Origin: Clostridia bacterium
Lineage (GTDB): Bacteria > UBA6262 > WVXT01 > JAUXBS01
Assembly: GCA_030618495.1 (NCBI GenBank)
Contig: JAUXDE010000020.1
Location: forward strand, 1 to 19,233
Length of the DNA: 19,233 nucleotides
Direction: 5' to 3'
In this document: positions 1 to 17,330 of the stretch, in pieces
How positions within the stretch are numbered: the first letter of the stretch is position 1
Layout: every line of letters starts with the position of its first letter
The notes under the pieces: generated by a model
What the model was told of the DNA's origin: nothing
What the model saw: the letters and a program-made list of their open reading frames with translations, nothing else
Databases searched by the model: none
Position numbers and translations under genes: made by a program

Positions 1-94
1 AGTCGAAGATTTCTTCAATCTTACCTGCCGGTTTTATTTCTTCTATCACGGCATTCCTGGATATTATTTTACCAAATAAATTACTATTATACAT
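1..94 (-). CDS. 5' end of next gene, possibly aminodeoxychorismate synthase component I (partial)
   Basis: An open reading frame starts with ATG at 94 and runs off the left edge of the window, giving 31 residues that begin MYNSNLFGKIISRN and end KIEEIFD. The start overlaps the end of the upstream glutamine amidotransferase gene by 8 bases in another frame, which is typical of translational coupling. The visible residues do not resemble the start of TrpD. Because PabA is often followed by its partner PabB, a PabB-like chorismate-binding enzyme is the best guess. No catalytic motif falls inside the window, so the assignment rests on context only. Confidence 0.45.
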   Translation of the reverse strand, partial: MYNSNLFGKIISRNAVIEEIKPAGKIEEIFD

Positions 95-650
95 GATTAA
101 TAAAGTTTCTTATAACGTCCAATCCCCTTTTTGTCATGAATGATTCCGGATGGAACTGTATTCCTTCCACTGCATATGATTTATGCCTTATACCCATTAT
201 AACGTTGTCGTGTGTCCTTGCGGTTACTTCAAGGCATTCAGGAATATTTTCAACAACCAGTGAATGGTATCTCGCCCCGACAAAAGGGTTTTCAATGTTT
301 GTGTATATGGTTTTTGAATCGTGGTAAACGAGCGATGTTTTCCCGTGAACAACTTCATCCGCGCGTCTTACAGTGGCGCCGAAAACCTCGCATATGCACT
401 GGTGTCCGAGACAAACGCCGAAGATGGGTACCTTGCCGGCAAAATGTTTGATAACTTTTTTAGATACCCCGGATTCTGCGGGAGTCCCGGGGCCGGGGGA
501 TATTACGATTTTGTGGGGATTGAGTTTTTTTATACGGTTTATGTCAACCTTATCGTTGCGCGCTATAAAGGTTTCCGCTCCAAGCCGGCCAAATGCCTGG
601 TAAAGGTTGTACGTGAAAGAATCATAATTATCAATCAGGACTATGCGCAT
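87..650 (-). CDS. pabA: Glutamine amidotransferase, PabA/TrpG (aminodeoxychorismate or anthranilate synthase component II)
   Basis: This 187-residue protein is a complete class I glutamine amidotransferase. It hydrolyses glutamine and passes ammonia to a chorismate-binding partner, making either 4-amino-4-deoxychorismate (folate) or anthranilate (tryptophan). Visible motifs are DNYDSFTYN at residues 7-15, SPGPGTP at 51-57 (oxyanion region), GVCLGHQ with catalytic Cys80, and HPES with His167 and Glu169, so the triad is complete. The length is normal for the family. The start at 650 has only a weak GAGGG-type ribosome site. It lies 31 bp behind the beta-helix/OmpA gene and overlaps the next gene by 8 bp. 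PabA and TrpG cannot be told apart reliably here. The pabA symbol is chosen because the next gene does not begin like trpD. Confidence 0.93.
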   Translation of the reverse strand: MRIVLIDNYDSFTYNLYQAFGRLGAETFIARNDKVDINRIKKLNPHKIVISPGPGTPAESGVSKKVIKHFAGKVPIFGVCLGHQCICEVFGATVRRADEVVHGKTSLVYHDSKTIYTNIENPFVGARYHSLVVENIPECLEVTARTHDNVIMGIRHKSYAVEGIQFHPESFMTKRGLDVIRNFINHV

Positions 651-681: not shown

Positions 682-3600
682 TTATGCTTGCTTGGTTAGT
701 ATGAATTCCACTCTTCTGTTATTATGCCGGCCTTCCACGGAATCGTTAGTGGCAACGGGTTTCTGTCCGCCAAATCCTTCATGTTTTATTCGTTCAGCCT
801 CAAGTTTTTTAACGTTTACCAGGTATTCTTTTATGCTCTTGCCTATATTCCCGGAAAGTTGCATGTTGTACGTGGGATTCCCCGTGTTGTCCGTATGAAC
901 GTTTATTTCGATGTTATGTTTCTCAAAACTCTTTATTGCTTCTCCGATTCTCTCAAGATTGGGAAGGCTTTCATCGCTGAAGGTTTCTTCAACAAGGTCG
1001 AATTTTATTGCTTCTTCAAGAACGGTAATGACAGTCTTCTTCCCGCCTTCAATCGTTTCCTCGTTCATTGAAACCCCTTCTATGGTTTTTATTTCTTCTA
1101 CGGGGTCTCCACCGGGGGCTGAATCGATTGCGCTTTCAAGAACAACCTGGCCGGGAGTTCCGGGTGATTCTGTTGAAGATGCGGTTAGCGTTGGAGCAGT
1201 GCGCGATACGGGCACGCCTTCTTCTTCAAATGCTTCTTCCCTCTTTTTGTTGTCTTTAAACACATTGCTTCCGTCAATGTTTGCGCCGGTAAGGCTGCCC
1301 ATCATTAATGCTACTTCATTCTTTTCAATGTTATTTAAAGTGATTTCGGGGGTTGAGTGATTAATGAACTTAATCCCTGTATTCTTGCTGTTCTTGATAG
1401 CGTTTTCGTTTATTACGGGGGATGATGATTCAAGGCATACAATTCCATAATAGTTGTCTTCAATTGAATTCTTTTCGAAAGTAGGTTTTGAAGAGTTTTT
1501 GCAGGTTAATCCTGCCTTATTTTCTTTGAATTTGTTGTTTGACAGCAATGAGCTGTTATCATCAAAACAGGTGATGCCGGAATTGTTTTTTTCGAAACTA
1601 TTTTCCTTAATGATATGCTTGATGGAATCCCGGCAGATTATACCTGAATCAATTGAGTTATTTATCTTATTCGATGTTATAGTCAGTTCTGTTGAAGTTT
1701 CTAAATCAATACCGTTGTTATTGCCGGTCAGGGTATTTCCTCTGACGACAGGTTTTGAGGCGTCCTGACAATTGATAGCCAGCTTGCTTCCCCTTATCCT
1801 GTTGTTTTCAACGGATGGCTCGGACGAATTTAAACAGGTAACACCTATTCCGTTGTTTCCTATATTGTTATCTTTTATGCCGGGTTTTGAGTTGTCCCTG
1901 GAAATAATACCGCAGTTCTTACTCTCCTGTATATTATTTTTTGTTATTTTGGGAGTGGATGAGCCCCCGCATTCTATGGCGACAAGATTTCCCTTTGAGA
2001 CGTTATTGCTAATGATTTTGGGGCTGGAGGAATCAATGCAATTAATTCCGACAGCGTTATTGTTGTTTATAGCGTTGGAGGTTATTCTTGCGGAAGAACT
2101 ATTTTCGCACAATATTCCACCGGCGCCGTTGTTCGCAATGCGGTTGCTGTCAATTATGGGCGCGGAATCATCTGATATTTTTATCGCAAACCCGGTATTG
2201 TTTTCAATTATACTGTTCTTGATGCCGGGAGTTGAAGAATCATAGCATTTTATCGCATCAACTGCCCCTGAAACTTCACAGAGGTTAATCACAGAGCCCT
2301 TTGCTTTTCCCATGAATATGATACTTCCCCAACCCTCTTTACCGATTACTACCGGGGCGCCTTCTCTTCCTTCCGCTAAGAGTTTTCCATAAACGATTAT
2401 ATCGCACTTCCCGTTGTTTGATATAAGTTTTCCGTTATGCTCTATTGCCGCATCATTGTCGCATGAATCGGCATTGAATGCAACAGTGGTTCCCGGGCGC
2501 AGGGTTAACGTTTTACCTTTGCTTATGATAACATCCCCAGTTACCGTTACCGCTCCCTTCCACTTCATATCCCTTTTTAATTCACCGGATACCCTCTGTG
2601 TTTTTTCTTTATTCTTCCTGAAGATGCTGAAAATATGAATGAAGTAATCCTTGTCGGGAACAGGGAGCAACGTGCGGACCTTTTTGCGGGTATCCTGCGG
2701 GGCGAGGTTTATTATTCTGCCGATAAATTGCGATATTACCCTTATAGCAATTGCAAGGTTATTAAAGAATGTCTTTATTACAGCCCATACGGCGCTAATT
2801 ATTCCACCAGTGAATTTCATCAGGGGGACGGGCATTTTGTCTTCAACAAATTCGATAATGCCTCCGGAGAGATTTTTGGTTATAGAGACAAACGGTTTTA
2901 GAAGTAAACTTACGACGGGCCGGATTTTTGACCAAATAAAGTAAAGCGCGTCGTCAAGCTTCCTGTAAACGAGTCCCATAACCCGGTAAACCTTGTTTAT
3001 TGTTTCTGAAGCGGAAATCATGATAAACAATAATACTAAAAACAGGAATGCCTTAATTATTCTTATGAACAAAGGATCCGTTTCAGTTTTTGATTTTTCT
3101 CTTGCAGCCGCGAGCTGTTTTTTTACGTACTTATCCTTCATTGCCTGTTTAAAGGATTTTGATTTGTTGATATTTTCATATACCTTTACAGCACTGCGAA
3201 ACTTGTTCTCTTTTTTATAGCTGTCGGCAATTCTTAGCATTGCTCCGAATTCATATTTGTTGAGTCCGGCATGCTTATTGCAGAGCTTCAATATCCGCTT
3301 GTTTGATTTCCTGTAGAGTTTGTTGTCAATTTTGCCCAGCGCCTTCCCATGCACCATTTTAACGAATTTCTTCACTACCCATTCAGTATCTTTCTTGTCC
3401 TCAGAGTATTTGCTTATTGAACTGTATGTATTTATCGCCTCTTTGTATGACTTGTTGTCAGCATAACTGCCTGCAAGCTTGCATAGGAGTTGGGGTATTT
3501 TTTCCTTTTTGATGGTCTTTTTGTGAAGTTTAAATATGAGTTGATATGAAAGCAGCGCGAGTTCATTGTTTTCAAGGTATTTACTGCTGTCTTTTGCGAT

Positions 3601-4626
3601 TTCCTCAAGCTCTTCAACCGTAGCCTGAATTTTCTTTTCCTTTACGTTGTTGAGGAATTCCCGGTACATCCCGCTGAGTTGTTTCTTGTTTCCGGAAAAC
3701 TTGTAAATATATTTCCTGTAATTAAAAAACTTTACCAGGTCGTTTTCGGCAGGATGTTTGTTGATGAGCCGGTTGAATAAATCAGCTGTGATTTCCTTTG
3801 CTTTCTCGTTTTTTCGCAGAAGAGCATAAGTCCCCTTCGTATCTTCTGATAGGAAACACCGGTCAATGCAGTCCTTCCCCTCACTGAGTTTTTCTTCTAT
3901 TGCGCCCGGGTTTGCCGCGCCTTCCAGTAACTGTTTTGAACCGTCTACCCAGTCTCTTATTTCGTAATGCCATATGATTCTTATGTCCTGGTTGGGATTG
4001 GTGTTGGTTATCATCCACTTAACGTTATTAGCGCCTATTTCATAGCCTTTCGGCATAACAGAGCATATAAAATCAGTATCAACATCCTTGATGTTTATTG
4101 ACAGTTTATTTACCTTGCCCTTCCACAACTTGGCCGGTTTCAGGATATAAGTAAGAGTACTGAGGCCTGAAGAGTCTTTTTTCATATTTATGGTATAAGT
4201 ATGTCTTATGTATCTTTTGCTCCCTGAGTTAAGCTTAATCCACGATGTGTAAACCTTGCCATAACTCATTCCCTTGATTTTTGAATTGGCCCTTGCCCTT
4301 TTAAGCGATTTCTTTCTTATTTTTTTTGACACGTAGGTTTTGAATTCCCTGATTTTAATGCCGTTTTTTGTGGATGCGGGTCTTGGAAATCCGAATTGAA
4401 AGGTCTTGGTCTTTCCCGTGTTTTGGTATAGAGCCTTGCAGTCAACGTCCCATTCACCGTCATTGGCTTCAATTTCGATGTTTGCGTGCAGGAGCCTTAC
4501 CGATGAGTTCCACGCGGGGTAGACTATGTTCTTCCCGACAAAGTAACCGTCAACGGCAAAAACAGACGAGGAAATGCAGGTCAATAATATTGTTATGATA
4601 ATCCTGATAAAAACCATTTTTTTCAT
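682..4626 (-). CDS. Large exported protein: N-terminal domain, helical repeats, membrane segment, right-handed beta-helix and OmpA-like C-terminal domain
   Basis: This 1314-residue protein starts with a signal peptide (about residues 1-24, ending SSSVFA). An N-terminal beta-rich domain (about 25-230) faintly resembles the DUF4424 type. Helical, TPR-like repeats with many Lys and Asn residues cover about 240-510. A hydrophobic segment lies at about 519-542, followed by amphipathic helices to about 660. A right-handed parallel beta-helix starts near 690 with a pGT-type cap. It has about 14 rungs of 22-24 residues, each marked by a (D/N)SSxP-like turn, between about 790 and 1130. An OmpA-like domain (about 1200-1314) shows HTDNTG, GFGGQKP and GRHNNRRVEF. 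OmpA domains bind peptidoglycan, but the usual DAP-contacting Arg is Ile1261 here. The start ATG overlaps the TGA of the TadZ-TadA gene, so the two are coupled. The exact function is unknown; a wall-anchored component or accessory of the pilus is an inference. Confidence 0.85.
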   Translation of the reverse strand: MKKMVFIRIIITILLTCISSSVFAVDGYFVGKNIVYPAWNSSVRLLHANIEIEANDGEWDVDCKALYQNTGKTKTFQFGFPRPASTKNGIKIREFKTYVSKKIRKKSLKRARANSKIKGMSYGKVYTSWIKLNSGSKRYIRHTYTINMKKDSSGLSTLTYILKPAKLWKGKVNKLSINIKDVDTDFICSVMPKGYEIGANNVKWMITNTNPNQDIRIIWHYEIRDWVDGSKQLLEGAANPGAIEEKLSEGKDCIDRCFLSEDTKGTYALLRKNEKAKEITADLFNRLINKHPAENDLVKFFNYRKYIYKFSGNKKQLSGMYREFLNNVKEKKIQATVEELEEIAKDSSKYLENNELALLSYQLIFKLHKKTIKKEKIPQLLCKLAGSYADNKSYKEAINTYSSISKYSEDKKDTEWVVKKFVKMVHGKALGKIDNKLYRKSNKRILKLCNKHAGLNKYEFGAMLRIADSYKKENKFRSAVKVYENINKSKSFKQAMKDKYVKKQLAAAREKSKTETDPLFIRIIKAFLFLVLLFIMISASETINKVYRVMGLVYRKLDDALYFIWSKIRPVVSLLLKPFVSITKNLSGGIIEFVEDKMPVPLMKFTGGIISAVWAVIKTFFNNLAIAIRVISQFIGRIINLAPQDTRKKVRTLLPVPDKDYFIHIFSIFRKNKEKTQRVSGELKRDMKWKGAVTVTGDVIISKGKTLTLRPGTTVAFNADSCDNDAAIEHNGKLISNNGKCDIIVYGKLLAEGREGAPVVIGKEGWGSIIFMGKAKGSVINLCEVSGAVDAIKCYDSSTPGIKNSIIENNTGFAIKISDDSAPIIDSNRIANNGAGGILCENSSSARITSNAINNNNAVGINCIDSSSPKIISNNVSKGNLVAIECGGSSTPKITKNNIQESKNCGIISRDNSKPGIKDNNIGNNGIGVTCLNSSEPSVENNRIRGSKLAINCQDASKPVVRGNTLTGNNNGIDLETSTELTITSNKINNSIDSGIICRDSIKHIIKENSFEKNNSGITCFDDNSSLLSNNKFKENKAGLTCKNSSKPTFEKNSIEDNYYGIVCLESSSPVINENAIKNSKNTGIKFINHSTPEITLNNIEKNEVALMMGSLTGANIDGSNVFKDNKKREEAFEEEGVPVSRTAPTLTASSTESPGTPGQVVLESAIDSAPGGDPVEEIKTIEGVSMNEETIEGGKKTVITVLEEAIKFDLVEETFSDESLPNLERIGEAIKSFEKHNIEINVHTDNTGNPTYNMQLSGNIGKSIKEYLVNVKKLEAERIKHEGFGGQKPVATNDSVEGRHNNRRVEFILTKQA

Positions 4627-6710
4627 TGAAACATCCCCATGTCAACATCATATCCCATTGACTTAAGTTCCCCGAGAAACCCGGGGACGAAACCCGTGTT
4701 CTTGAAATCACCCTTAATCCTGCCGTTTCTATCTATGCCTTCCTGGCAGAAAGTGAATATGTCCTGCAGGGTGATTACGTCCTGCTCTATTCCGGTAACT
4801 TCGCTTATCTGCGTTATTTTTCTTGAACCATCGCCCAGGAACCTTGTGACCTGTACGATTAGCTGTATTGCAGAAGCAATTTGTTCCCTGATTGCCTTGA
4901 CGGGCAGTTCCATGCCTGCCATAAGAACCATCGTTTCAATTCTTGAGAGCGCATCACGCGAGGAATTTGAGTGAACGGTGGTTATTGAGCCGTCGTGCCC
5001 GGTGTTCATTGCCTGGAGCATGTCAAGAGCTTCGCCGCCGCGGCATTCGCCGATAACTATCCTGTCAGGTCTCATTCTGAGGGCATTTCTTACAAGGTCA
5101 CGTATAGTAATGGCTCCCTTACCCTCAATGTTAGGAGGTCTTGCTTCAAGTCTTATTACGTGTTCCTGGGGCAGTCTCAATTCCGCGGAATCCTCTATCG
5201 TTATTATTCGCTCGGTTGGCGGGATGAAGCCTGAAATGATGTTCAGGAGAGTTGTTTTCCCTGTTCCTGTGCCTCCGGATATTATGACGTTCTTCCTGCA
5301 CTTCACGCATAGTTTGAGGAAAGCTGCCATTTTCTCATCAATCGTTCCGAGATTTATCAGGTTATCGATGCTAAGTACTTCCTTTGCGAACTTCCTTATG
5401 GTCAGGGTAGGCCCTTCAAGGGACAACGGGCTTATTATTGCATTTACCCTGGAGCCGTCAGGAAGCCTTGCATCAACGTACGGGGAACTCTCGTCTATCC
5501 TTTTCCCCAGCGGGGTAACAATGCGCTCTATAACCCTTAAAATATGATGATTATCAATAAATGCTTTGCCTGACTTTTTTATGCATCCGTTTATTTCAAT
5601 GTATATTCTGTCGGGAGCATTGACCATGATTTCGGTTATTTTTTCATCAGCCAGAAGTCCTTCAAGCGGTCCGAGTCCCAACACTTCGTCCATTATTTCT
5701 TTTACGAGTGATATTCTTTTCAATCGCGTGGAAGTCTTGATTTTTTCCCTGTCCAGGATTTCCCCGATTTTCTTTTCAACATCTCTATGCAGGGCTTCGG
5801 ATACATCGTTGTCTTTAAGGTCCATCTCCTTTACGAGCTGCCTGTGGACACGTATTATTATTTCATCCCTGCCGTCTTTCTTGTCGGATGAGGTAATTTG
5901 CCTTGAAGGAATACCGCTTTCTTTTACGGCTTGAATACTCCTGTCGTCAGAATCCTCCGTAAAAAGCAATTCCCCCTTTCTGTCCCTCCCTGAATGTATC
6001 TGGCCTGCCATTTTTTCTATGGCTGTTGACAGCGGAGTTTTTTTCCTGTTCACCGCGAACGGGATTTCCTTATTAATTGATTCAAGGACGGTTTCCTGTT
6101 CTTCGGGAACATTGATGAAAATGTCCCTCTTCAGGTATTTTTCTATATCAGACTGGCTGATTCCTGATTTTCCGTTTGTACGGTTAAGCACTATCCTTGT
6201 TTTAAAGGCCGGGAAGTGAAGCTCGGTTAGTTTGTCAAGGATGAACCCGCAGTGATTTACAGATAAGGTATCGGGAGTGGCGACAACCAGCGCCAGGCTG
6301 GTGTTGTCAAGGGTGGACAGCAGTTCCCCTGAAAAACCCTGCCCCATGTCGATAATTATATAATCAAATTCATTTTTTAACTGCCTGAGTAGTACGGTTA
6401 AAGAAGGTTTCCCGGTTTCTTTTTCATGAATGCCCGATATAACCCTGACTCCATGGATGGGTTTTATTTTTTCCTTAAGAGAATTATCTCCGGACCGGGT
6501 ATCAGTATTGATATTAAGGTCTTTAATTGTAGTGATTTTATGAATGTTGAAAATAGTTGCAGAATCCCTGCCAAACAGGAAATTGAAGTCAAGCAGGGCC
6601 GTTTCGTTATTTTTTTCCTTTGCAAGGTTAACAGCAAGGTTTGAAGCCAGCACTGTTTTGCCTACCCCACCCTTACTTGAAAGAAATGTAATGACTTTAC
6701 CCTTTTTCAT
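4623..6710 (-). CDS. tadA: TadZ-TadA fusion: ParA/MinD-like localisation ATPase joined to the pilus assembly ATPase
   Basis: This 695-residue protein fuses two Tad components. Residues 1 to about 240 are a ParA/MinD-type ATPase with deviant Walker A SSKGGVGKT (signature Lys13) and an IIDMG Walker-B-like strand, as in TadZ/CpaE but without a receiver domain. A charged linker leads to a CpaF/TadA secretion ATPase (about 290-690). This part contains LGPLEGLLADEKITEIMVN, Walker A GGTGTGKTT (about 478-486), an Asp-box-like ITIEDSAELRL, Walker B DRIVIGE (about 548-554) and a His-box region TTVHSNS. The hexameric ATPase powers Flp pilus assembly at the cytoplasmic face, and TadZ positions the machine. 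A -10 box lies only 10 bp before the ATG and there is no Shine-Dalgarno sequence. The gene begins the second Tad transcription unit, behind a terminator, and overlaps the next gene by 4 bp. Confidence 0.95.
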   Translation of the reverse strand: MKKGKVITFLSSKGGVGKTVLASNLAVNLAKEKNNETALLDFNFLFGRDSATIFNIHKITTIKDLNINTDTRSGDNSLKEKIKPIHGVRVISGIHEKETGKPSLTVLLRQLKNEFDYIIIDMGQGFSGELLSTLDNTSLALVVATPDTLSVNHCGFILDKLTELHFPAFKTRIVLNRTNGKSGISQSDIEKYLKRDIFINVPEEQETVLESINKEIPFAVNRKKTPLSTAIEKMAGQIHSGRDRKGELLFTEDSDDRSIQAVKESGIPSRQITSSDKKDGRDEIIIRVHRQLVKEMDLKDNDVSEALHRDVEKKIGEILDREKIKTSTRLKRISLVKEIMDEVLGLGPLEGLLADEKITEIMVNAPDRIYIEINGCIKKSGKAFIDNHHILRVIERIVTPLGKRIDESSPYVDARLPDGSRVNAIISPLSLEGPTLTIRKFAKEVLSIDNLINLGTIDEKMAAFLKLCVKCRKNVIISGGTGTGKTTLLNIISGFIPPTERIITIEDSAELRLPQEHVIRLEARPPNIEGKGAITIRDLVRNALRMRPDRIVIGECRGGEALDMLQAMNTGHDGSITTVHSNSSRDALSRIETMVLMAGMELPVKAIREQIASAIQLIVQVTRFLGDGSRKITQISEVTGIEQDVITLQDIFTFCQEGIDRNGRIKGDFKNTGFVPGFLGELKSMGYDVDMGMFQ

Positions 6711-6745: not shown

Positions 6746-6777
6746 ACAACAAAAAACCGCAGAAATAATTTCTGCGG
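6746..6777 (-). terminator. Rho-independent terminator after the 59-residue protein gene
   Basis: CCGCAGAAA-TAA-TTTCTGCGG (6757-6777) is a perfect 9-bp stem with a 3-nt loop. On the minus strand it is followed at once by TTTTTTGTTGTTTT. It separates the upstream Tad operon and small gene from the tadZ-tadA unit. Confidence 0.88.
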
Positions 6778-6826
6778 TCATGGTTTTGTTATTTAAATCA
6801 TACAGAAGAAGAAGAGTTTTCTGTGA

Positions 6827-7006
6827 TTAATTAGTCAACAGGCTCCTTTTGACGCAGGATACATTCTTTTTATTGTTTTTTCTTTTGGAGGGAAGAGGCT
6901 TCTTTGACAGCTTTTCCTGTCCATTGTCAATTACCACGGGAAAGAATATTACCCTTTTTTCTCCGTTTCCCATCGTTACTTGCATTTTTAGTATTCTCTT
7001 AACCAT
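6827..7006 (-). CDS. Small basic protein of unknown function (59 residues)
   Basis: The reading frame encodes 59 residues beginning MVKRILKMQVTMGNGEKRVI and ending in a Lys/Arg/Asn-rich tail. An upstream in-frame ATG at 7048 exists. The start at 7006 is preferred because a strong AAAGGAG sits 8 nt before it, and because a TATAAT at 7054-7059 would place the transcript start at the upstream ATG. The first half could form two or three beta strands and the second half is basic and probably flexible. There is no signal peptide and no recognised domain. It is followed by a clear rho-independent terminator and is a separate small unit between the two Tad transcription units. Good ribosome site, promoter and terminator argue that it is a real gene, but its role is unknown. 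Confidence 0.65.
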   Translation of the reverse strand: MVKRILKMQVTMGNGEKRVIFFPVVIDNGQEKLSKKPLPSKRKNNKKNVSCVKRSLLTN

Positions 7007-7053
7007 TTTAATGACTCCTTTCGAGAACCAGTGTTCATTCGCCTTCATTAATA

Positions 7054-7059: not shown

Positions 7060-7270
7060 ACACAAGATTGTATAGTTTTTGTAATAAGTGCGTAAAATCA
7101 CATAATTGTTATTGTCGATAAGAGTACAGAATTACTCAAATTATATAACAATATACTTTAAGTGTTAAACATCACGTTTGTATGCTGGTTTTAATTTCAG
7201 GAAGTACTTCAAACGGTTTGTGGTAAGATTGCCAGGTTATATTTTTAAAAGAATTTTCTCAAAGAAAACC

Positions 7271-7283
7271 TAATACTACACTA
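7271..7283. repeat. Left copy of a 13-bp inverted repeat flanking the 7285-8031 gene
   Basis: TAATACTACACTA here is the reverse complement, with one mismatch, of TAGTGTAGTGTTA at 8060-8072. The two copies sit just outside the stop codon and in the 5' leader of the gene between them. They could be protein-binding sites, traces of an inserted cassette, or chance in AT-rich DNA. Confidence 0.4.
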
Positions 7284-7284
7284 G

Positions 7285-8031
7285 TTAAAAACCAATGCCT
7301 GCCTTTATGAATAGAACCAACTGGTCAATGCTTATTTCTGCAACGTCTAACATGGTGCTCAATTTCAATTGGAAGCCTTTTTCTGATGAACCGAATTTTA
7401 TTCCAGGGAAAAAGATAAGTGAACCTGAGCCAGGCAGATAAACTGTTTCAACCATTAAACTCGTTGATTCACGCGGGGACGTATATATAGCAAACCTGAA
7501 ATCATTACGTATAAGCCCCATCTGCAGAGATAATCCAACAGCTTCCTTGATTACAGTAGTACCCATAATATAAAGGTCAGTAGCAGTAGTTAATGTGTTT
7601 CCGGAGAAATTCAATAACTGTATAACGAACCCCAGGCCTGTTGATTCGTACGCCGGCAAGAGATTCACTTTACAGTTAAGGTGAATCTCAGGGAGGTTTA
7701 TACTGCCATCGCTTATAATATTATCAAAAGACTGGATATTTAAGCCCATTTCCGTGTTCCTGGACAAACCGTACAGCAGGGATGCCCCCATGCTGGAGAT
7801 GAAACTATTTATAACGTTCCCAATGTCGGTACTCAGCATTTGACCTATATAGAAACCCGAATAACCCTCAAACCTAAAGCTCTGTTCATTGACGGTTCCA
7901 GCCAATGTTGTTGTCATCAATCCCGACGTTTCACATAAGTAAGTAGACTGGGCAAACATCGCTTTAGGCACAAACCCCGCAATTAGCAACGCAAGCAAAA
8001 TCCTGACAACTGATCTTTTTCTTTGATTCAT
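7285..8031 (-). CDS. Exported beta-barrel-like protein of unknown function
   Basis: This 248-residue protein has a clear signal peptide (MNQRKRSVVRILLALLIAGF, with cleavage likely after AMFA near residue 27). The mature part is rich in alternating polar and hydrophobic strands and Gly/Ser turns, without long hydrophobic helices. It ends in GIGF, and a terminal aromatic residue is the usual recognition signal for beta-barrel insertion by BAM. An outer-membrane barrel is therefore the best structural guess; no family is recognised. The start at 8031 has a strong AAAGGAG 7 nt upstream. A consensus sigma-70 promoter lies about 70 bp before it, so it can be expressed independently of the Tad operon whose last gene, the secretin, ends 167 bp upstream. 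A link to the pilus is only contextual. Confidence 0.8.
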   Translation of the reverse strand: MNQRKRSVVRILLALLIAGFVPKAMFAQSTYLCETSGLMTTTLAGTVNEQSFRFEGYSGFYIGQMLSTDIGNVINSFISSMGASLLYGLSRNTEMGLNIQSFDNIISDGSINLPEIHLNCKVNLLPAYESTGLGFVIQLLNFSGNTLTTATDLYIMGTTVIKEAVGLSLQMGLIRNDFRFAIYTSPRESTSLMVETVYLPGSGSLIFFPGIKFGSSEKGFQLKLSTMLDVAEISIDQLVLFIKAGIGF

Positions 8032-8059
8032 AATTTTCTCCTTTTCATTTTTTATTATA

Positions 8060-8072
8060 TAGTGTAGTGTTA
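8060..8072. repeat. Right copy of the 13-bp inverted repeat flanking the 7285-8031 gene
   Basis: TAGTGTAGTGTTA lies in the 5' leader of the 7285-8031 gene, between its promoter and ribosome site. It pairs with 7271-7283 with 12 of 13 matches. Confidence 0.4.
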
Positions 8073-8099
8073 CTATACCATAATTATAACATCATTGTC

Positions 8100-8128
8100 A
8101 TTATACCACAATTTTTCCATTTTGTCAA
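8100..8128 (-). promoter_or_regulatory. Consensus sigma-70 promoter for the 7285-8031 gene
   Basis: On the minus strand TTGACA (8123-8128) and TATAAT (8100-8105) are separated by exactly 17 bp, a perfect match to the housekeeping consensus. Transcription should begin near 8093, giving a leader of about 60 nt that holds one copy of the 13-bp inverted repeat and the AAAGGAG ribosome site. Confidence 0.88.
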
Positions 8129-8198
8129 GTTAGAATATTGTTAGATTTTGGGGCAGGTCTTAAGGTGGGACAAAAAAGTCCTTATTATATAAGTTATT

Positions 8199-9629
8199 TT
8201 ATTCCTCTATATCCTTCTTTTTTTGTTTCAATTTCTCATAGCCCAGTTCCTGCCCCTTGTTGATATCGGTAAGTTCAAGAGGTATTTCCCTTGCGCGTAC
8301 AATTCTTGGAGTGATGAACATAAGGAGTTCTTTCTCTATTACCTCTTCTTTTGTTGTTTTAAAGAGTAGTTCAATGATGGGTATATAGCCCAGGATGGGA
8401 AACCTTGAGACTGTTTTTACCTTCTTGTTCTTTAAAAGCCCGGCTATCATCAGTGTTTCATCCGGTTTCATGTTTACGTTAACGTCTGCGTAACTTTTGT
8501 TGAGGGCGGCAACGGCAACGGTAGTACGCAGCTCATCAAGTTCGCTCAAAACGGCATTGATATGCAGTTTAATGTTTTCCTCGCCGTTAATCCTGTATAA
8601 TAGGGGTTCAATCTCAAGTTCTATGCCGAAGTTCTTCCACTCTATAGTGGGCACTCCCTGTGATGATAATACACCGTATCCTCTTTCCCCTCCGGACATG
8701 AACTTTGCTTTACCCCCGTTTACCGTTACGAGTTTTGGCCTGGCAAGCATCTTTCCCCTGCCCTGTCCTATCGCTGCGTCAAGGGCGTTGTCAATGTTTA
8801 ATATGGAGGAGAATATACTCGACCTCGACTGGTTAATGAAATTGCTTCCGAAGCTTAAGCTTGACGTGAACCTGGCCGGGGATATGAGGTTTAAATCAAG
8901 ATTAGAAGTGAATTCCGCGCTCATCTCGTATATCTTGACGTCCACCTGTATGAGCTTGTCGCTTCCTATCCTTAATCCGTTTACTACTTTCTTGCTGAAC
9001 ATCTTTGCAACCTTTTTGGCTCTTTCCCTGTCCTCTTCCGTTGGGACCATGCCGTCAAGAAAGATTGTTTTATTCACCATCTTTACGTCAACCGTATCAC
9101 TGCCTATTATTTCAGCTATCCTGAATGCCGAGGTTTCCCTGAGAATTTTACTCGGCTTAAGGAAGTTCATCACCATGTCACCGTGGGAAAGAATTACTTT
9201 CTGAAGCCGTTTCATGTCATCCTGGGTGTCATATTCGCCTTCCAGCAAAATCTTGCCCCCTCTTACCGGTTTCATCCTGACCAGCCTCATTATGTCTTTG
9301 CCTAAGAAAGATTCTATTTCCTTTATTAGTTCCCCGGTATCAACGGGGATTACTTCAAGGTCATATTCGGTCATTTTATCGTTATTATCCCATATCTCAA
9401 GGGTTGTTGAACCGCCTGATTTAGCAACTACCCGCACCTCCTGCGATGAAATGATGCTGAAATCAGCTATGTCGGGATTGCCGACAGCAACGCGTTTGAC
9501 GTCATCAACTTTTATGGTCTTTGACTGGCCTGCGACCATTTCAAACCTTATCCCCGAAAAAACGGAAGCGGGAATAAGGAAAAATATAAGAATATTGATT
9601 AGGATAACATTTAGTAATGTTTTCTTCAT
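8199..9629 (-). CDS. cpaC: Tad pilus outer-membrane secretin (CpaC/RcpA)
   Basis: This 476-residue protein forms the outer-membrane channel through which the Flp pilus emerges. A signal peptide (about 1-25) is followed by a pilus-type secretin N-domain with the motif KRVAVGNPDIADFSII (about 44-60). BON-like and ring-forming segments follow (about 95-215). The C-terminal secretin domain (about 240-450) contains ARPKLVTVNGGKAKFMSGGE, a gate region, and the family signature around FPILGYIPIIELLF near the end, closing with ELLMFITPRIV. The length is normal for CpaC/RcpA. The start has AAGGAG 5 nt upstream. It is the last gene of the flp operon, 11 bp behind cpaB, which is the usual neighbour. No clear terminator is seen between its stop and the promoter at 8100-8128. 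Confidence 0.95.
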   Translation of the reverse strand: MKKTLLNVILINILIFFLIPASVFSGIRFEMVAGQSKTIKVDDVKRVAVGNPDIADFSIISSQEVRVVAKSGGSTTLEIWDNNDKMTEYDLEVIPVDTGELIKEIESFLGKDIMRLVRMKPVRGGKILLEGEYDTQDDMKRLQKVILSHGDMVMNFLKPSKILRETSAFRIAEIIGSDTVDVKMVNKTIFLDGMVPTEEDRERAKKVAKMFSKKVVNGLRIGSDKLIQVDVKIYEMSAEFTSNLDLNLISPARFTSSLSFGSNFINQSRSSIFSSILNIDNALDAAIGQGRGKMLARPKLVTVNGGKAKFMSGGERGYGVLSSQGVPTIEWKNFGIELEIEPLLYRINGEENIKLHINAVLSELDELRTTVAVAALNKSYADVNVNMKPDETLMIAGLLKNKKVKTVSRFPILGYIPIIELLFKTTKEEVIEKELLMFITPRIVRAREIPLELTDINKGQELGYEKLKQKKKDIEE

Positions 9630-9640
9630 TTTGACTCCTT

Positions 9641-10450
9641 TTATCTCACTTTTTCTATTTTCTTTTCGTTCCTCCTTATTACCTCAACAGATTTTAAGTG
9701 TTCCTTTCTTTTTTTGTTGAGGGTTGCTTTTAAATCAAAGAGTTCCTTGAATTTTTTCTTCTTAAGCTCCAGTATGTCAGTGTCATCAGAGGTTCTTAAT
9801 GACAGGGTGATAACTGTTCCGCTGTTAATTGCCAGTGAAAGGATTTCAGATTCATCGGGTGTAACAACAACCGTTACGCTGCTGTAATGACCTGAAATAG
9901 TGTTTTTGCTAAGCGCGCTGCCAACAGCCAGGACATGAACGTTCTGAAGCAAGGTATAGGTTGTCGGTCCCGAGTAAGAGCCCGAAAGGTTTTCTTTAAA
10001 AGTCCCTATTATATCCACCCTGTTACCGGGTTCAAGCAACCCCGAAAGGCCGTTTACGCCTATAACAGGAAGCGATAGCGCCCTGAGTCCCTTGCCGGGT
10101 ATTTTTGATGACAGGTTATCCCTCTTATCGTTAATTTGATATGCAGTTAATTGCGCTCCTTTTACGATATCTTTAACCGCAATCTGCCCGACTGCTTCTT
10201 CCCTGCAGGATAATGCCATGGGCATGGCGGATTTTTCACTTAGCTTCTTTACAGAAATCATATCGTCCCTTAAAACGGTTTCTGCCGGAATATCCTCCAG
10301 CGCAATCACGACGTTCACCTTAATATTCTTTGCCCTGTCATGCAAATTGTTTTTTAGTTTGCTTTCAACACGATAGACGTAAATACTGATCAAGATAATG
10401 CCCAGAATCCCCGAGGCAATTGAATAAATTAAAATTCTTTTTTGTTTCAT
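9641..10450 (-). CDS. cpaB: Tad pilus assembly protein CpaB/RcpC
   Basis: The protein has 269 residues from the start chosen here. An in-frame ATG 33 nt upstream would overlap the preceding gene; the ATG at 10450 has AAAGGAG 5-6 nt upstream and gives the usual N-terminus MKQKRILIYS followed by one membrane helix. A SAF domain follows (IPAETVLRDDMISVKKL, then GQIAVKDIVKGAQL). Next comes the CpaB/RcpC segment with LSLPVIGVNGLSGLLEPGNR and VDIIG, and VVVTPDESEILSLAINSGTVITLSLR. CpaB/RcpC acts in the periplasm with the secretin, and some members bind peptidoglycan through the SAF domain. The basic, Lys-rich C-terminal tail is longer than the core domain needs. The gene sits between a small exported protein and the secretin. 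Confidence 0.93.
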   Translation of the reverse strand: MKQKRILIYSIASGILGIILISIYVYRVESKLKNNLHDRAKNIKVNVVIALEDIPAETVLRDDMISVKKLSEKSAMPMALSCREEAVGQIAVKDIVKGAQLTAYQINDKRDNLSSKIPGKGLRALSLPVIGVNGLSGLLEPGNRVDIIGTFKENLSGSYSGPTTYTLLQNVHVLAVGSALSKNTISGHYSSVTVVVTPDESEILSLAINSGTVITLSLRTSDDTDILELKKKKFKELFDLKATLNKKRKEHLKSVEVIRRNEKKIEKVR

Positions 10451-10452
10451 TT

Positions 10453-10836
10453 TTACTCCTTTCCCGAAATTAATAATGCGCATGTATAATTATCCTGGTC
10501 TGTATAGAAACAAATATACCATTGACTGTTGTTCTTGGTCATTATTATGATAGCTAAATCCATTGAATTTGATACTTCTTCTGAAATCCGCGGTTTTTTC
10601 CAGCCATTCGCAAGCAGGTAAGATTCGTAATAATTGAAATTAATATCAACACTTCCCTTGTTCCTGTAAATTCCCATAACCGGAGTATCACCTTCGGTCA
10701 GTAGAACCTTTTCCGAGCCGGGAAAAATCGGCAAACCGCAGAATATGTTTGTTCCGTTTGTTTTGCCGGGCGCGCCCGGGACAAACGCCAGGAACGCGGA
10801 GGTAATCAATATTATGATAAGCAGCGCTTTTCTCAT
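10453..10836 (-). CDS. Small exported protein with a GW-containing fold, Tad-associated
   Basis: This 127-residue protein has a signal peptide (MRKALLIIILITSAFLAFVPG). The mature part is a small soluble domain containing LPIFPGSEKVL, then VDINFNYYESYLLANGWKK and three or four further strands. Small secreted proteins with a PGSE-like turn and a YxxxLxxxGW helix are often seen in pilus and secretion loci, though I cannot name a characterised member. Two cysteines in the C-terminal half (ICFY and TCALL) could form a disulfide. Its ATG overlaps the TGA of the upstream pseudopilin gene by 4 bp and it ends 2 bp before the cpaB start, so it is firmly inside the operon. A periplasmic accessory role is inferred from the context. 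Confidence 0.75.
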   Translation of the reverse strand: MRKALLIIILITSAFLAFVPGAPGKTNGTNIFCGLPIFPGSEKVLLTEGDTPVMGIYRNKGSVDINFNYYESYLLANGWKKPRISEEVSNSMDLAIIIMTKNNSQWYICFYTDQDNYTCALLISGKE

Positions 10837-11321
10837 TTTATTATGTATTTCTCCTGTTCCTCAAGGTATTTATTGGAAACACTAACGTCATTCATCATAT
10901 TGTTGATTGAACCGGAGAGAAATGCTGTTTTTCTTATCTTGTTAATAAAATCCCTCGTGTTCCAACATCCCCTCAAAACGTAAATATGACTTTTAATTTG
11001 TATAGTGTCCTTATCATTGAATGATTTTTTTAGTATATGCGGAATTTTTACCGACTCCCCTTCCGTGGATACCAAGTCGCCGTAGGCGATATTTCCCATA
11101 AATGACGCAAGGCTGTTAAATAAAAAATTCCGCTTAGGAGTTTTGGAGGGTTTTGAAAGCATTTCCTGCCTGATTTTTATTTGTTGATTGATTTTTGCCA
11201 TGTTGCACTTTGCCATGAATGACAAACCTATGAATAATACAATAAACAATGAAATCATCACCATGACCGCCTCAATCATTGCCTGCCCGTTGTGATATTC
11301 AATTTTTAATGGTCCAGGCAT
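10833..11321 (-). CDS. TadE/TadF-like pseudopilin
   Basis: The protein has 162 residues. A short leader ends HNG and is followed by QAMIEAVMVMISLFIVLFIG, a hydrophobic helix with Glu at position +5 after the predicted cleavage. That matches the class III prepilin pattern (G, then xxxxE). After the helix comes a charged soluble domain with two cysteines. TadE and TadF are minor pilins processed by the TadV/CpaA peptidase and needed for Flp pilus assembly. This protein fits that role by position and architecture, although the soluble part is not clearly recognised. It overlaps the upstream TadG-like gene by 16 bp and the downstream gene by 4 bp. The start has AAAGGA about 11 nt upstream. Confidence 0.8.
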   Translation of the reverse strand: MPGPLKIEYHNGQAMIEAVMVMISLFIVLFIGLSFMAKCNMAKINQQIKIRQEMLSKPSKTPKRNFLFNSLASFMGNIAYGDLVSTEGESVKIPHILKKSFNDKDTIQIKSHIYVLRGCWNTRDFINKIRKTAFLSGSINNMMNDVSVSNKYLEEQEKYIIK

Positions 11322-12808
11322 GAAATATTATTTCCTTTGCTTTTTATATAATCCAACAAAATGTTTCGGTCTGACCCGTTAATGTCAGAATCCGACAGCT
11401 GACCCCATAAATTGACTTTTTCGATACCGGCTTCGTACGGGGGCAGGCTTATTAACATATCCCTGATGTCATTTGAAACTTTTTTTATTCTTACTTTCCC
11501 ATGCTTTCTTCTCGTGCGCCTGAATATTCTTGCCTGGGAAACCGAATAGATCGTAGGTGGTTTAATGCTGAAAATATTTGAAATATGGTTCCAGGGGAAC
11601 TCTTCTTTCCGTGATTTATAGGTTAATACCACGCAGGCTTCATCATGCTTAATATCCTCATCCCTAACCCACGGGAGCGGTACGTTCTCGGGAATCAATG
11701 AGGAGAATTTGGAGGCAAGTTCCCTTATTTCTTCAATTACAGAATATACCTCATCCTTAAAGACCGGTTCCCACTTATAACACCAGAATGATTCATGTTC
11801 GGAATATCCCCACCTGAACCCTTCTTCCAGGTGTTCCCATTCTTTAGGCCAGTTAATTACAGGTTTGTCTTTGATTTTAGGTTCTTTTATATACCAGTAT
11901 TTTTTAGAAGGGTCACTATTGGGCCACAAATAAGTAACGAGTCTCTTTTCCGCTTTCCAGCTTATGACCTCATCGTCGTCATGTTCATCGGGGAAGTACG
12001 TAAAAGTCTTGAATTTTTCAGGATATTGAGGGTATGAAGACCGCTTGCTTAGGTCAGCCGGCTTGGGGCCATAAAACTTTCCTACCTTCTTTGCCTCCTT
12101 CCAGGGCAGAGTATATTGTCCGGTTTCGAGATTGAACGTTGCGCGCTGTTTCCATTTCTGATGCCAGTTGACTCTTTTTACCGTTGTGTCATGTTTGTCC
12201 GGAACCTCAATGGTTTTCATTCCTTCCAGGGTTTTTCTATCCCTGTTATTTTTCTTCTTTGGGGGCTTCATGAGTTCTTCCCAGGTTGCTTCATGGGCGT
12301 ATAAGCCTATTGCGTGTTTATTGCCGCTTATATTGGAAAATGAAGGCACGGGGACGGCAACCCCCGAAGAGTTATTGATATTAATGATATGCATTGCCTC
12401 GCCAAAGGCAATCCCCGACCAGGGTAGTCGCGCGAACCGGCCCTGTATTCCGGATATTTGCTGGGCTGTTCTCCAGCATCTTTCTATTGCTTTAAAAAGG
12501 AATGCTGAAATAGGGGCGTTGCCTGATGACAGCGCCATCAAAAGCGCAGGCAGAAGGATTGCAATTGAAATATAACAGGCTTCAATGCCGTTGTTCATCG
12601 CAACAAGTATGTTCAGTCCCCTGGCCTGCCACGTTGCAGCAGACAGGGCAGCGCTGTCAGCTACATTTTGCAAATGAATTTTTGTCCTTATTATATCACC
12701 TATTCCCAGCGCATAAAAAAGAAAAGCCAGTAGTAGCGGTATTACTATTACCGCCAGAACGAGCGCCTGTCCTTTATTGTTGCCGGTATTTTTAAAAAGA
12801 TTGAACAT
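11306..12808 (-). CDS. TadG-like pilus assembly protein
   Basis: This 500-residue protein begins with a TadG-type N-terminus: NKGQALVLAVIVIPLLLAF, a membrane helix, then IHLQNVADSAALSAATWQ. This is the conserved opening of the putative Flp pilus assembly TadG family. A second hydrophobic stretch (about 79-92) follows. The remaining 400 residues are soluble, unusually rich in Trp, Lys and Pro (for example between about 190 and 370), and do not show the von Willebrand domain that some TadG proteins carry. The start at 12808 has AAAGGG 8 nt upstream and overlaps the tadE stop by 17 bp. It overlaps the next pseudopilin gene by 16 bp. It probably sits in the inner membrane and reaches into the periplasm. 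The soluble domain is unrecognised. Confidence 0.82.
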   Translation of the reverse strand: MFNLFKNTGNNKGQALVLAVIVIPLLLAFLFYALGIGDIIRTKIHLQNVADSAALSAATWQARGLNILVAMNNGIEACYISIAILLPALLMALSSGNAPISAFLFKAIERCWRTAQQISGIQGRFARLPWSGIAFGEAMHIININNSSGVAVPVPSFSNISGNKHAIGLYAHEATWEELMKPPKKKNNRDRKTLEGMKTIEVPDKHDTTVKRVNWHQKWKQRATFNLETGQYTLPWKEAKKVGKFYGPKPADLSKRSSYPQYPEKFKTFTYFPDEHDDDEVISWKAEKRLVTYLWPNSDPSKKYWYIKEPKIKDKPVINWPKEWEHLEEGFRWGYSEHESFWCYKWEPVFKDEVYSVIEEIRELASKFSSLIPENVPLPWVRDEDIKHDEACVVLTYKSRKEEFPWNHISNIFSIKPPTIYSVSQARIFRRTRRKHGKVRIKKVSNDIRDMLISLPPYEAGIEKVNLWGQLSDSDINGSDRNILLDYIKSKGNNISCLDH

Positions 12809-13400
12809 TAAATATCCCTTTACTATCAGGAGTAAACGGCGGGCCTATTTCCACGGGCATTGTGGCTTCCCCGGTAATTGCGATAAAAGGCGATTCACCT
12901 TTTACGCCTTCAAGTGTACCCTTACCGGATTTAAACAGTTTTCCAATCAAGGGAATTGCCGGTTTGTGCCAGTAGGTCAAACGAACGGTTAACTCCGGGT
13001 ACTTATCCCTCATACATACTCTTCTCATGTTGATAAGCGTATTCTCATCAGGAGATTCAATGCTTAAGGCCAGTCTTGCGTTTTTCATCCTTTCAGTATA
13101 TGCTGACATGTTCTCTCCTTCGGAGGCTCCGGGAAAAGCGTCTACTTTATCCCCTGCAATCGGGCTCATTGACCTCAATGCCGCAAGCCTGATTTTTTGA
13201 ATGTTAAACGTGCCGTCTTCATTGTAGTTTACTATTCCAACCCTGCATGAAGTGTAAGCGGCATAGTTAACAAGCATTTTAATGCTGTAAATTACCGCGA
13301 ACTGTACTGTTCCCAAAATAGTAAACATCAGGAAAGAAATAACCAGGACAAATTCAATCAGAGTTTGACCTTTATTGAATTTCATATCATTTGAATTCAT
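12792..13400 (-). CDS. tadE: TadE-like pseudopilin
   Basis: The protein has 202 residues. The leader MNSNDMKFNKG is followed by QTLIEFVLVISFLMFTILGT, a hydrophobic helix with Glu at +5 and Phe at +6 after the predicted cleavage site. The TadE motif continues with YAAYTSCRVGIV. The remaining periplasmic part has a conserved-looking segment with Trp and Pro (LTYWHKPAIPLIG). TadE pseudopilins are cut by TadV/CpaA and are needed for pilus assembly. The start lies 1 bp after the cpaA stop, with AAGGA 9 nt upstream. The stop overlaps the TadG-like gene by 17 bp. The length is typical to slightly long for TadE. Confidence 0.88.
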   Translation of the reverse strand: MNSNDMKFNKGQTLIEFVLVISFLMFTILGTVQFAVIYSIKMLVNYAAYTSCRVGIVNYNEDGTFNIQKIRLAALRSMSPIAGDKVDAFPGASEGENMSAYTERMKNARLALSIESPDENTLINMRRVCMRDKYPELTVRLTYWHKPAIPLIGKLFKSGKGTLEGVKGESPFIAITGEATMPVEIGPPFTPDSKGIFNVQSF

Positions 13401-13401
13401 C

Positions 13402-13914
13402 TTAAAGATTCCTTAATAAAACAATAAGAGTCCCGATGGATATGGCAAGCCCGAAAGGTACCGGGTAGCCGGCATTTCCGTCAGGATGCTCAGTTTTCAA
13501 TCCCGGGACTACAAATGAACGAAAGAAACGCAGTACTTTATTCAAGCTATTAGTTAATTCCTTATTCTTAAAAAGAATAAGCAATGATATGAGCACAGCA
13601 ATAAACAATGAAAATACAATACTTTGAAGTAGAAACGAATATCCTTTCAACGCTCCTATTGCGGCAAAAAGTTTCAGGTCGCCTCCACCTATACCCTTGA
13701 TTATGAAAAACGGCAAAAACAATACTGTACCGACAAGTAAACCTATGATACTGTCAGTCAATCCGTTTAAGCCCAAGAATAAGTAATTTAATACTATTGC
13801 GGCGAATATTACAGGAAATGTTATAAGATTGGGAATCCTGCCGTAAGTGATGTCCGAGTATCCTGCGATAATCAGAAACAAAATGAGTACATATTCCATG
13901 CAATCAATCTGCAA
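13402..13914 (-). CDS. cpaA: Prepilin peptidase CpaA/TadV
   Basis: This 170-residue membrane aspartic peptidase cleaves the leaders of Flp pilin and TadE-type pseudopilins. The two catalytic aspartates are visible: DITYGRIPN (Asp21) and the GGGDLKLFAAIGALKG motif. It lacks the N-terminal methylase domain of classical PilD, as expected for TadV/CpaA. About five to six membrane helices can be traced. The start is TTG at 13914, chosen because AAAGGA lies 7 nt upstream. The in-frame ATG five codons later has no ribosome site. It lies 11 bp behind flp and 1 bp ahead of tadE, so pilin, peptidase and pseudopilin are co-transcribed. Confidence 0.93.
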   Translation of the reverse strand: MQIDCMEYVLILFLIIAGYSDITYGRIPNLITFPVIFAAIVLNYLFLGLNGLTDSIIGLLVGTVLFLPFFIIKGIGGGDLKLFAAIGALKGYSFLLQSIVFSLFIAVLISLLILFKNKELTNSLNKVLRFFRSFVVPGLKTEHPDGNAGYPVPFGLAISIGTLIVLLRNL

Positions 13915-13925
13915 ATGAATTTCCT

Positions 13926-14162
13926 TTATTTAAGCTGGCCTATATCGCTTGCGCCCTTGTCTGAATCGTACTGTGATTCAGCTTTCTTTGTCTGCTCTGT
14001 AATTGCTTTTCCCGCTTTTACACCGGAATCCCTGCTTTGTTTGCCGATAAGCCTGATAACAACAATTGCCGCTATTATCACAAGCGCAATGATAATAATA
14101 TACTCTGTCATACCCTGCCCCCTAATACCGAGTTTTCCGCAAATTCTTTGTTTTTTTCCCAT
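13926..14162 (-). CDS. flp: Flp-type pilin (class III prepilin)
   Basis: This 78-residue prepilin is the likely major subunit of the pilus. A basic leader (MGKKQRICGKLGIRG) precedes QGMTEYIIIIALVIIAAIVV, so cleavage after Gly15 gives a mature pilin with Glu at +5 and Tyr at +6, the hallmark of Flp pilins. The hydrophobic helix is followed by a charged tail of about 40 residues, on the long side for Flp. The ATG at 14162 has GGAGG 9 nt upstream, and a promoter with TTGATT and TATAAT lies about 35 bp before it. It is the first gene of the operon that runs to the secretin. Confidence 0.95.
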   Translation of the reverse strand: MGKKQRICGKLGIRGQGMTEYIIIIALVIIAAIVVIRLIGKQSRDSGVKAGKAITEQTKKAESQYDSDKGASDIGQLK

Positions 14163-15477: not shown

Positions 15478-15740
15478 CGTGGTGCTTCTAACATATCTTT
15501 ACATATGCTGAAAGTATTTTGTTTCAGCGTCAAGGAACGAAGAGTGAGAATACTGTACGTATGTGAAAGATGAGTGACGCTGACGATGGACAAAAGACGA
15601 TAGCCCTTCGGGAAGGGCATCATTTGGACGTATTCTGCGTTTATCCTCTTCACCATATTCTCGATATGCTTTCATCGTCTTTCCTTGAATCCGTCTCAAA
15701 GCTTGCCCTTCATATGTCAAGATATGTTAGAAGTACCACG
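15478..15740. mobile_element. MITE-like non-autonomous insertion element, 263 bp
   Basis: The ends are inverted repeats of about 30 bp with 28 matches (15478-15507 and 15711-15740), each beginning CGTGGTRCTTCTAAC. The flanks are CTAG duplications. Joining the flanks without the element restores the 3' end of the 15727-16605 gene so that it aligns with its tandem paralog at 16620, so the boundaries are independently supported. The interior has several hairpins: CTGAAA/TTTCAG, CAGCGTCA/TGACGCTG and GCCCTT-CGGG-AAGGGC. A minus-strand reading frame of 73 codons spans most of it (15499-15720) but matches no transposase I know. A CTAG or TA duplication would fit mobilisation by an IS5-group or IS630-type transposase; no parent is visible here. 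Confidence 0.88.
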
Positions 15741-16619: not shown

Positions 16620-17330
16620 TTAGAATCTATACGCCAGGTTCATTGTCATTACCGGTTCGTTTTCATTAACGTACATTATATTCGGGTAGAGTCCAAGCCT
16701 TCGTTCAGTATCAAACTGCATGTTTTCAAGGTTTCTCATCCCGATTATAGTCGTTAATACCCCGTAAAGTATGCCTGCCCCCATGCTTATATTCATTACG
16801 CCTTTGTTTACTTCAGTTTCGCCATTGAAGATGTTAATCGTCGCGCCCACGTATAAACCGGAAATCCATGAAGTTATTATGTGTTTTGACACTTCAAGGA
16901 AGTAATTATCGGCTAAGCCGTATTCATACGGTTCGCTGTTAATCCTGAAATCAAACGGGCTTTCCTTTTTACTGAACATGTAAAATGTGCTGAGACCCCC
17001 AAAGACTAATCCTGCGTAGAAGGAAAATTCATCTACCATAGAACCGTTGTAAAGAAAGAACAGGAATAACGTATAACCGCCTCCACAGGCGCCAAGGGTT
17101 TTGTCAATGAATGCCAGTTCAGGTGACAGGGTGTACTTCCTGCCGGATTCCTTCAGGGATTTATAGTATATGTTCTTGTAATCCTTCATGAAGTAGTACT
17201 TATAGGAACTAACTTCTTTCTCCATGAATAACCTGTCTTCAGCTCTTCCTGCAAGCGCGCGCGTGAAACTGCCGGATGAGATACCGAGAATAAGGATTAC
17301 TGATATTAGTCTGATAATAGTTTTATTCAT
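16620..17330 (-). CDS. Exported protein of unknown function, paralog of the downstream gene
   Basis: This 236-residue protein has a signal peptide (MNKTIIRLISVILILGISSG, with cleavage likely after ALA near 27). The mature part opens with YKYYFMKDYKNIYYKSLKES and then LSPELAFIDKTLGACGGGY. Four moderately hydrophobic Gly-rich segments follow, and it ends IMYVNENEPVMTMNLAYRF. The terminal Phe fits outer-membrane insertion, but the hydrophobic segments would also fit inner-membrane helices, so its location is open. It is the first gene of a two-gene tandem duplication. Its promoter (TTGATT-N16-TATAAT) ends 11 bp before the ATG and there is no Shine-Dalgarno sequence. No known family is recognised. 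Confidence 0.8.
   Translation of the reverse strand: MNKTIIRLISVILILGISSGSFTRALAGRAEDRLFMEKEVSSYKYYFMKDYKNIYYKSLKESGRKYTLSPELAFIDKTLGACGGGYTLFLFFLYNGSMVDEFSFYAGLVFGGLSTFYMFSKKESPFDFRINSEPYEYGLADNYFLEVSKHIITSWISGLYVGATINIFNGETEVNKGVMNISMGAGILYGVLTTIIGMRNLENMQFDTERRLGLYPNIMYVNENEPVMTMNLAYRF

Follow-up and report, generated by a model that had tools for sequence, protein, structure and literature searches.

The window analysed here is a stretch of 19,233 nucleotides (nt) that comprises the entire contig JAUXDE010000020.1 (C25) of assembly GCA_030618495.1, a genome of 1.69 Mb (98% complete, 179 contigs). It contains genes of a Tad (type IVc) pilus machine, among them one for a fused TadZ-TadA ATPase (tadZA), and directly after tadZA lies the gene in question, a stop-free open reading frame (ORF) of 1314 codons in a single frame (682-4626, minus strand) that encodes a composite protein of 1314 amino acids (aa). 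The ATG of the composite gene (4626) overlaps the TGA of the 695-aa tadZA ORF (4623) as ATGA; this 4-nt overlap agrees with the translational coupling to the ATPase claimed in an earlier note on this DNA, and, because start and stop overlap, no terminator is possible between the two genes. The features of the composite gene are as follows.

682..4626, minus strand: composite envelope protein, whole gene, 1314 aa (ORF and domain searches)
4555..4626, minus strand: signal peptide, residues 1-24, cleavage at SSVFA/VDG, without a good lipobox (sequence and hydropathy)
3955..4554, minus strand: DUF4424-type beta-sandwich domain, residues 25-224 (sequence and profile comparisons)
3082..3954, minus strand: helical (TPR-like) repeats, residues 225-515 (weak Pfam TPR_6 and SNAP matches; helices in a low-confidence model)
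3004..3072, minus strand: transmembrane (TM) segment 1, residues 519-541 (hydropathy)
2590..3000, minus strand: amphipathic, positively charged helical region, residues 543-679 (sequence analysis and model)
2764..2832, minus strand: residues 599-621, candidate for a second membrane crossing, likewise hydrophobic in the ortholog
1291..2589, minus strand: right-handed beta-helix of 14 rungs behind an N-terminal cap, residues 680-1112; includes a position of stacked cysteines (Pfam, model and sequence)
1042..1290, minus strand: linker, residues 1113-1195 (low predicted local distance difference test score, pLDDT)
685..1041, minus strand: OmpA-like domain, residues 1196-1314 (Pfam and PDB matches)
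844..846, minus strand: Ile1261 codon, where the peptidoglycan clamp would have Arg; Asp1246 and Asn1254 are kept (OmpA comparison; motif from PMC5104382)

The order of parts is thus signal peptide, DUF4424-fold domain, helical repeats, TM segment, amphipathic stretch, 14-rung NosD-type beta-helix and C-terminal OmpA domain. The earlier note had read the same build, with the second part described as a beta-rich domain, and Pfam, AlphaFold2 and a profile match to PDB 4g2a bear it out. The N-terminal part was left unnamed by Pfam in the full-protein search, and residues 332-498 gave weak matches to TPR_6 and SNAP, both under the gathering score. The N-terminal domain matched exported DUF4424-like proteins of unrelated genomes (G018, G041 and G149; E 1e-12), which themselves match DUF4424. 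A profile of six domains (the composite and five relatives) matched PDB 4g2a, a DUF4424 structure (E=5e-14), and all six aligned domains matched PF14415, the composite domain alone being below gathering in Pfam (E=0.0075); on these profile matches we identify the beta-rich domain as DUF4424. DUF4424 is a secreted beta-sandwich, and proteins that carry it are nearly all secreted (PMC3848476). As in those proteins (PF14415; lpg2210, PDB 4g2a; PMC3848476), a signal peptide precedes the sandwich, and among the relatives G149 also carries TPR and G018 and G041 a C-terminal TM segment; however, known members are about 300-360 aa long, stand alone or with YARHG, and have no described beta-helix or OmpA domain.

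The C-terminal half was recognised directly, with Pfam matches to Beta_helix (PF13229, E=1.7e-41), NosD (PF05048) and OmpA (PF00691, E=1.3e-14, residues 1215-1304), the last accompanied by matches to OmpA domains in PDB (E down to 1e-13). Fourteen rungs of 22-24 residues each are readable in the sequence of residues 785-1106, and the AlphaFold2 model of the beta-helix reached a pLDDT of up to 94 (averaged in blocks of ten). The modelled beta-helix resembles generic right-handed beta-helices, NosD (7osf) being the nearest among the best matches, with a target-normalised template modelling score of 0.47. Its cap and rung pattern is that of NosD and other right-handed beta-helix proteins (PF05048, PF13229), but these are standalone exported proteins, whereas the composite's domain is flanked by a membrane region on its N-terminal side and an OmpA domain on its C-terminal side. 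AlphaFold2 performed poorly on residues 25-700 modelled without relatives (pLDDT 43), and its confidence was low for the OmpA part of the second model, too. All component domains are known; neither their combination nor its position after tadZA is described in the literature searched, in line with the earlier note's statement that no described Tad component has such a build.

The same genome also encodes a standalone exported beta-helix paralog (contig C79; 4340-5542 of locus L049) of 400 aa, with 39% identity and the same stacked cysteines. A gene that reads as NAD-kinase-like adjoins its 3' side, and likewise in locus L187 of another family; since this gene follows in both, the standalone form appears to be ancient, and its duplication may have given rise to the beta-helix of the composite.

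The sole ortholog of the composite was found in a sister species of the same genus (G001, JAUXBS010000117.1; genome 76% complete), with 57% identity over residues 590-1311. There the gene is cut by the end of its contig and, as in the window, pabA/trpG follows it. Because GC content and GC at third codon positions (GC3) are uniform along the composite gene, and because the ortholog carries the amphipathic region, beta-helix and OmpA domain within one frame, assembly error does not explain the joins among these three parts. Residues 1-589 are seen joined to the remainder in this genome only, in a single metagenome contig; that an assembly error fused them to residues 590-1314 is nevertheless very improbable, as the gene is one open frame with even GC and GC3, overlaps tadZA, and has a sister ORF that extends upstream of residue 590 up to the contig end. 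The composite gene is real and intact, and encodes an unusual multi-domain envelope protein, restricted to one genus on present data.

Membrane topology and the OmpA domain

The signal peptide and the DUF4424 domain place the N-terminus outside the cytoplasm, and hydropathy revealed a single strong TM segment at residues 519-541. The earlier note saw a puzzle here, in that one crossing would leave the beta-helix and OmpA domain in the cytosol unless the amphipathic stretch crosses back or lies on the membrane. The puzzle is real. The AlphaFold2 models were of low confidence for residues 25-700 and for the OmpA part, so topology was not argued from them. The best candidate for a return lies at about 599-621: residues 599-616 have an Eisenberg mean of 0.58 and a moment of 0.23, and the sister segment has a mean of 0.62 but is more amphipathic. 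Inspection of beta-helices with the same cap showed that five of five (C79 of this genome; L184, L186, L187 and L188) have a signal peptide or a hydrophobic leader. These exported relatives favour a periplasmic C-terminal half and two crossings; thus the C-terminal half is probably periplasmic, with residues 599-621 as the likely second crossing. The positive charge after residue 621 argues the other way.

The alternative, in which the protein crosses once, its amphipathic helices lie on the inner membrane face and the beta-helix and OmpA domain stay in the cytosol near the TadZA motor, appears improbable to us. The lone strong TM segment and the basic character of residues 622-690 (16 Lys/Arg vs 6 Asp/Glu) fit it, and the loss of the clamp Arg described below would suit a domain that never meets the wall. 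However, the periplasmic N-terminal half is also rich in Lys/Arg (101 vs 54 Asp/Glu) and the protein is basic throughout up to residue 622, so charge is a weak guide to topology; the five same-cap beta-helices follow a signal peptide or leader; and OmpA domains are, to our knowledge, periplasmic in every characterised case. Stacked cysteines as a sign of a cytosolic beta-helix were rejected, the exported C79 paralog having the same cysteines.

Peptidoglycan binding by the OmpA fold requires the motif TD(x)7NxxLSxxRA, of which Asp, Asn and Arg are critical (PMC5104382). The motif of the composite reads TDNTGNPTYNMQLSGNIG, with Asp1246 and Asn1254 present and Ile1261 at the place of Arg, and that of the sister ortholog reads TDNAGNPAYNLELSKNIG; Ile replaces Arg in both species, and LSxxRA appears as LSGNIG/LSKNIG. 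The clamp Arg is kept in all 23 other OmpA domains compared, and also in this genome's own MotB (LSAARA), so that the organism probably has an ordinary cell wall. Between the two species, no part of the protein is better conserved than the OmpA domain (71% identity; beta-helix 58%, amphipathic region 43%), which is thus under constraint. Since a key residue for peptidoglycan binding is lost, its target is probably another protein or some unusual ligand in the wall, not the usual diaminopimelate (DAP) site; a simple peptidoglycan anchor has become doubtful. Tp0624 of Treponema pallidum (PMC5104382) is likewise a multi-domain, genus-restricted protein whose C-terminal OmpA-like domain is altered at the DAP-binding motif, but there Asp is lost in place of Arg, the N-terminal domains differ and no Tad link exists. 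The altered motif cautions against taking every OmpA domain as a cell-wall anchor.

The split Tad genes and the distribution of the composite

The other Tad genes and the flanking features of the window are the following.

87..650, minus strand: pabA/trpG amidotransferase, directly downstream of the composite gene; same neighbour in the sister species (ORF and sister comparison)
4623..6710, minus strand: fused TadZ-TadA ATPase, 695 aa (domain searches)
6755..6779, minus strand: intrinsic-terminator-like site upstream of tadZA (strong hairpin)
8199..9629, minus strand: Tad secretin (RcpA/CpaC) (Pfam)
9641..10483, minus strand: CpaB/RcpC (domain searches)
11306..12808, minus strand: TadG-like protein (Pfam)
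12792..13400, minus strand: TadE-like pseudopilin (Pfam)
13402..13914, minus strand: TadV prepilin peptidase (Pfam)
13926..14162, minus strand: Flp-like pilin, 78 aa, related to pilin ORFs on contig C65 (sequence)

Domain searches revealed no recognisable CpaD/RcpB or TadD gene within the window. The terminator-like hairpin (6779-6755) just upstream of tadZA suggests that tadZA, the composite gene and probably pabA form one transcription unit, apart from the tadV-tadE-tadG-cpaB-secretin operon; promoter-like matches were near the number expected by chance. The TadZ-TadA fusion was rejected as a novelty, as full-length matches to it occur in many families (42-49% identity).

The Tad genes of this genome are split among contigs. 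The earlier note placed the composite "in the place of tadB and tadC", which holds for its position but not as a replacement: the only T2SSF protein of the genome, other than a two-domain one of the T2SS/type IVa kind on C15, is a tadC on C57. The contig end truncates this tadC, and behind it come two genes with FHA domains and one with GAF/PAS (7088-10744 of locus L011), an order shared by contig C102 of the sister species; this conserved arrangement suggests phospho-dependent control of the pilus platform. Neither assembly contained tadB, whose most likely place is past the contig ends, here in the gap that follows C57. Two tandem Flp-like pilin ORFs were observed on C65 (4456-5400 of locus L180), preceded by a PEGA-like-repeat gene and a protein-kinase tail, and the sister species has a pilin-like match with similar neighbours (L179).

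Among 40 surveyed loci from other families in which tadA has downstream room, tadB/tadC lie within three genes in 33, a TadC-type domain is fused in one, and both are absent in six. Position after tadA is all that speaks for the composite as a functional stand-in for the TadB/TadC platform of the inner membrane. The composite has no T2SSF (PF00482) match in the Pfam search, tadC with its FHA neighbours exists in both species, and the six surveyed tadA genes show that adjacent tadBC may be missing elsewhere too; the tadC on C57 refutes the simple form of this idea, and we regard it as extremely improbable in any form. In Myxococcus, the TadB/TadC homologs of the Tad-like Kil apparatus are encoded in a second cluster, apart from the ATPase, and FHA proteins accompany the system (PMC8460266), as in the genome studied here; Kil has no such composite, however, and its ATPase carries an FHA domain in place of TadZ.

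The whole-protein search of genome contigs returned nothing, and its repetition with the two-species alignment returned the sister species only. A search of 386 genomes with the N-terminal half otherwise matched only DUF4424-like and TPR proteins; with the central part, searched against another 385-genome set that shares most of its members with the first, matches started at or near the beta-helix cap only, and the TM and amphipathic region matched the sister species only. Candidates for a beta-helix joined to OmpA elsewhere were rejected, those examined being carboxypeptidase-regulatory or Ig-like domains with OmpA. The four sister-family genomes contain neither the composite nor Tad genes. 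The earlier note had proposed looking for the same domain order next to tadA in other Tad loci; no similar protein occurs in the approximately 40 loci of other families. The note's refuting condition, homologs found mostly outside Tad loci, gave a neutral outcome, as the contig of the sole ortholog breaks inside the gene and its tadA side is unreadable. OmpA-domain proteins of about 200 aa do follow tadB-tadC in two of the 40 loci (L143, 6405-7013; L145, 6132-6743), with similar gene order.

A proposed role in the envelope

Given the domain order, the overlap with tadZA, the other Tad genes of the genome (TadV, TadE, TadG, CpaB, secretin, TadZA and Flp in the window; tadC and FHA genes on C57) and the orthology in the sister species, we tentatively propose that the composite is an inner-membrane-anchored cell-envelope scaffold working with the Tad machine. 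In the predicted placement, the DUF4424 and helical-repeat domains would lie in the periplasm, and the protein would cross the inner membrane at 519-541 and probably return at about 599-621, so that the beta-helix and OmpA domain would form a stiff arm projecting into the periplasm. It would thereby hold the Tad machine in the envelope, a role played elsewhere by separate CpaD (OmpA-like), TadD (TPR) and CpaI (bridge) proteins. The Tad link is supported by the start/stop overlap, which leaves no room for a terminator, and both halves are of an extracytoplasmic type, as beta-helix relatives follow signal peptides and DUF4424 proteins are nearly all secreted. The absence of a recognisable CpaD/RcpB or TadD gene from the window, the use of OmpA-like proteins by other Tad machines and the strong conservation of the OmpA domain also favour the proposal.

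Envelope anchoring of Tad machines varies by lineage, with CpaD in Caulobacter and TadD in Pseudomonas; we know of no report of either in Kil. Caulobacter CpaD adopts an OmpA-like fold that is believed to hold the secretin in place (PMC13170226). The composite resembles it as an OmpA-like fold encoded in a Tad locus, CpaD being a proposed structural anchor of the machine (PMC13170226), but CpaD is a 225-aa outer-membrane lipoprotein encoded after the secretin, whereas the OmpA domain here, without the clamp Arg, ends a 1314-aa inner-membrane protein whose gene comes after tadZA. A further step, which we consider speculative and rather unlikely, is that the accessory parts of the outer membrane, periplasm and inner membrane (pilotin/TPR, bridge and OmpA-like anchor) have merged into one beta-helix-armed, membrane-anchored and envelope-spanning protein co-translated with TadZ-TadA, a kind of Tad component not yet described whose OmpA domain is without the canonical wall clamp. 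If true, one protein combining CpaD/TadD-type functions would be another envelope solution and a single target for tests of the accessory layer.

Several observations weigh against a Tad scaffold. The shared operon, evident from the 4-nt overlap, is known from a single genome; the contig of the sister species breaks inside the gene, and no tadZA was found in that 76%-complete genome; recurrence beside Tad genes was not found in the loci of other families; and the adjacent gene that the two species share is pabA, which does not belong to the Tad set. In addition, the OmpA domain lacks the DAP-clamp Arg, and the second segment is marginally hydrophobic and followed by positive charge. A general envelope-integrity protein that has no role in the Tad pilus and lies by chance between tadZA and the pab genes is the main rival reading, somewhat less likely than the scaffold. 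In its favour are the conserved pabA, the changed gene order that the sister species shows upstream of tadZA, the scattering of the Tad genes over several contigs and the likeness of the composite's parts to general envelope proteins, but the overlapping stop and start imply joint translation with tadZA here, and the sister-family genomes without Tad genes are also without the composite.

Other genes and the sister record

Between the upstream Tad operon and the tadZA hairpin lies a small conserved ORF of about 55-60 aa (...RVIFFPVVI...; ~6850-7030, minus strand), which the sister species keeps in a rearranged setting, followed by a lipoprotein-like gene, not tadZA. A 248-aa exported protein without a Pfam match is encoded between the secretin gene and tadZA (7285-8031, minus strand); its sister ortholog is 47% identical and has three genes inserted beside it. 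The sister record is labelled "Clostridia bacterium isolate CSMAG_2805"; because secretin, TonB and SurA-like genes, as expected of bacteria with two membranes, occur in the genus, the Clostridia label looks wrong. Two adjacent, apparently related membrane proteins of 292 and 236 aa, with no convincing Pfam match, are encoded at 15727-16605 and 16620-17330 (minus strand).

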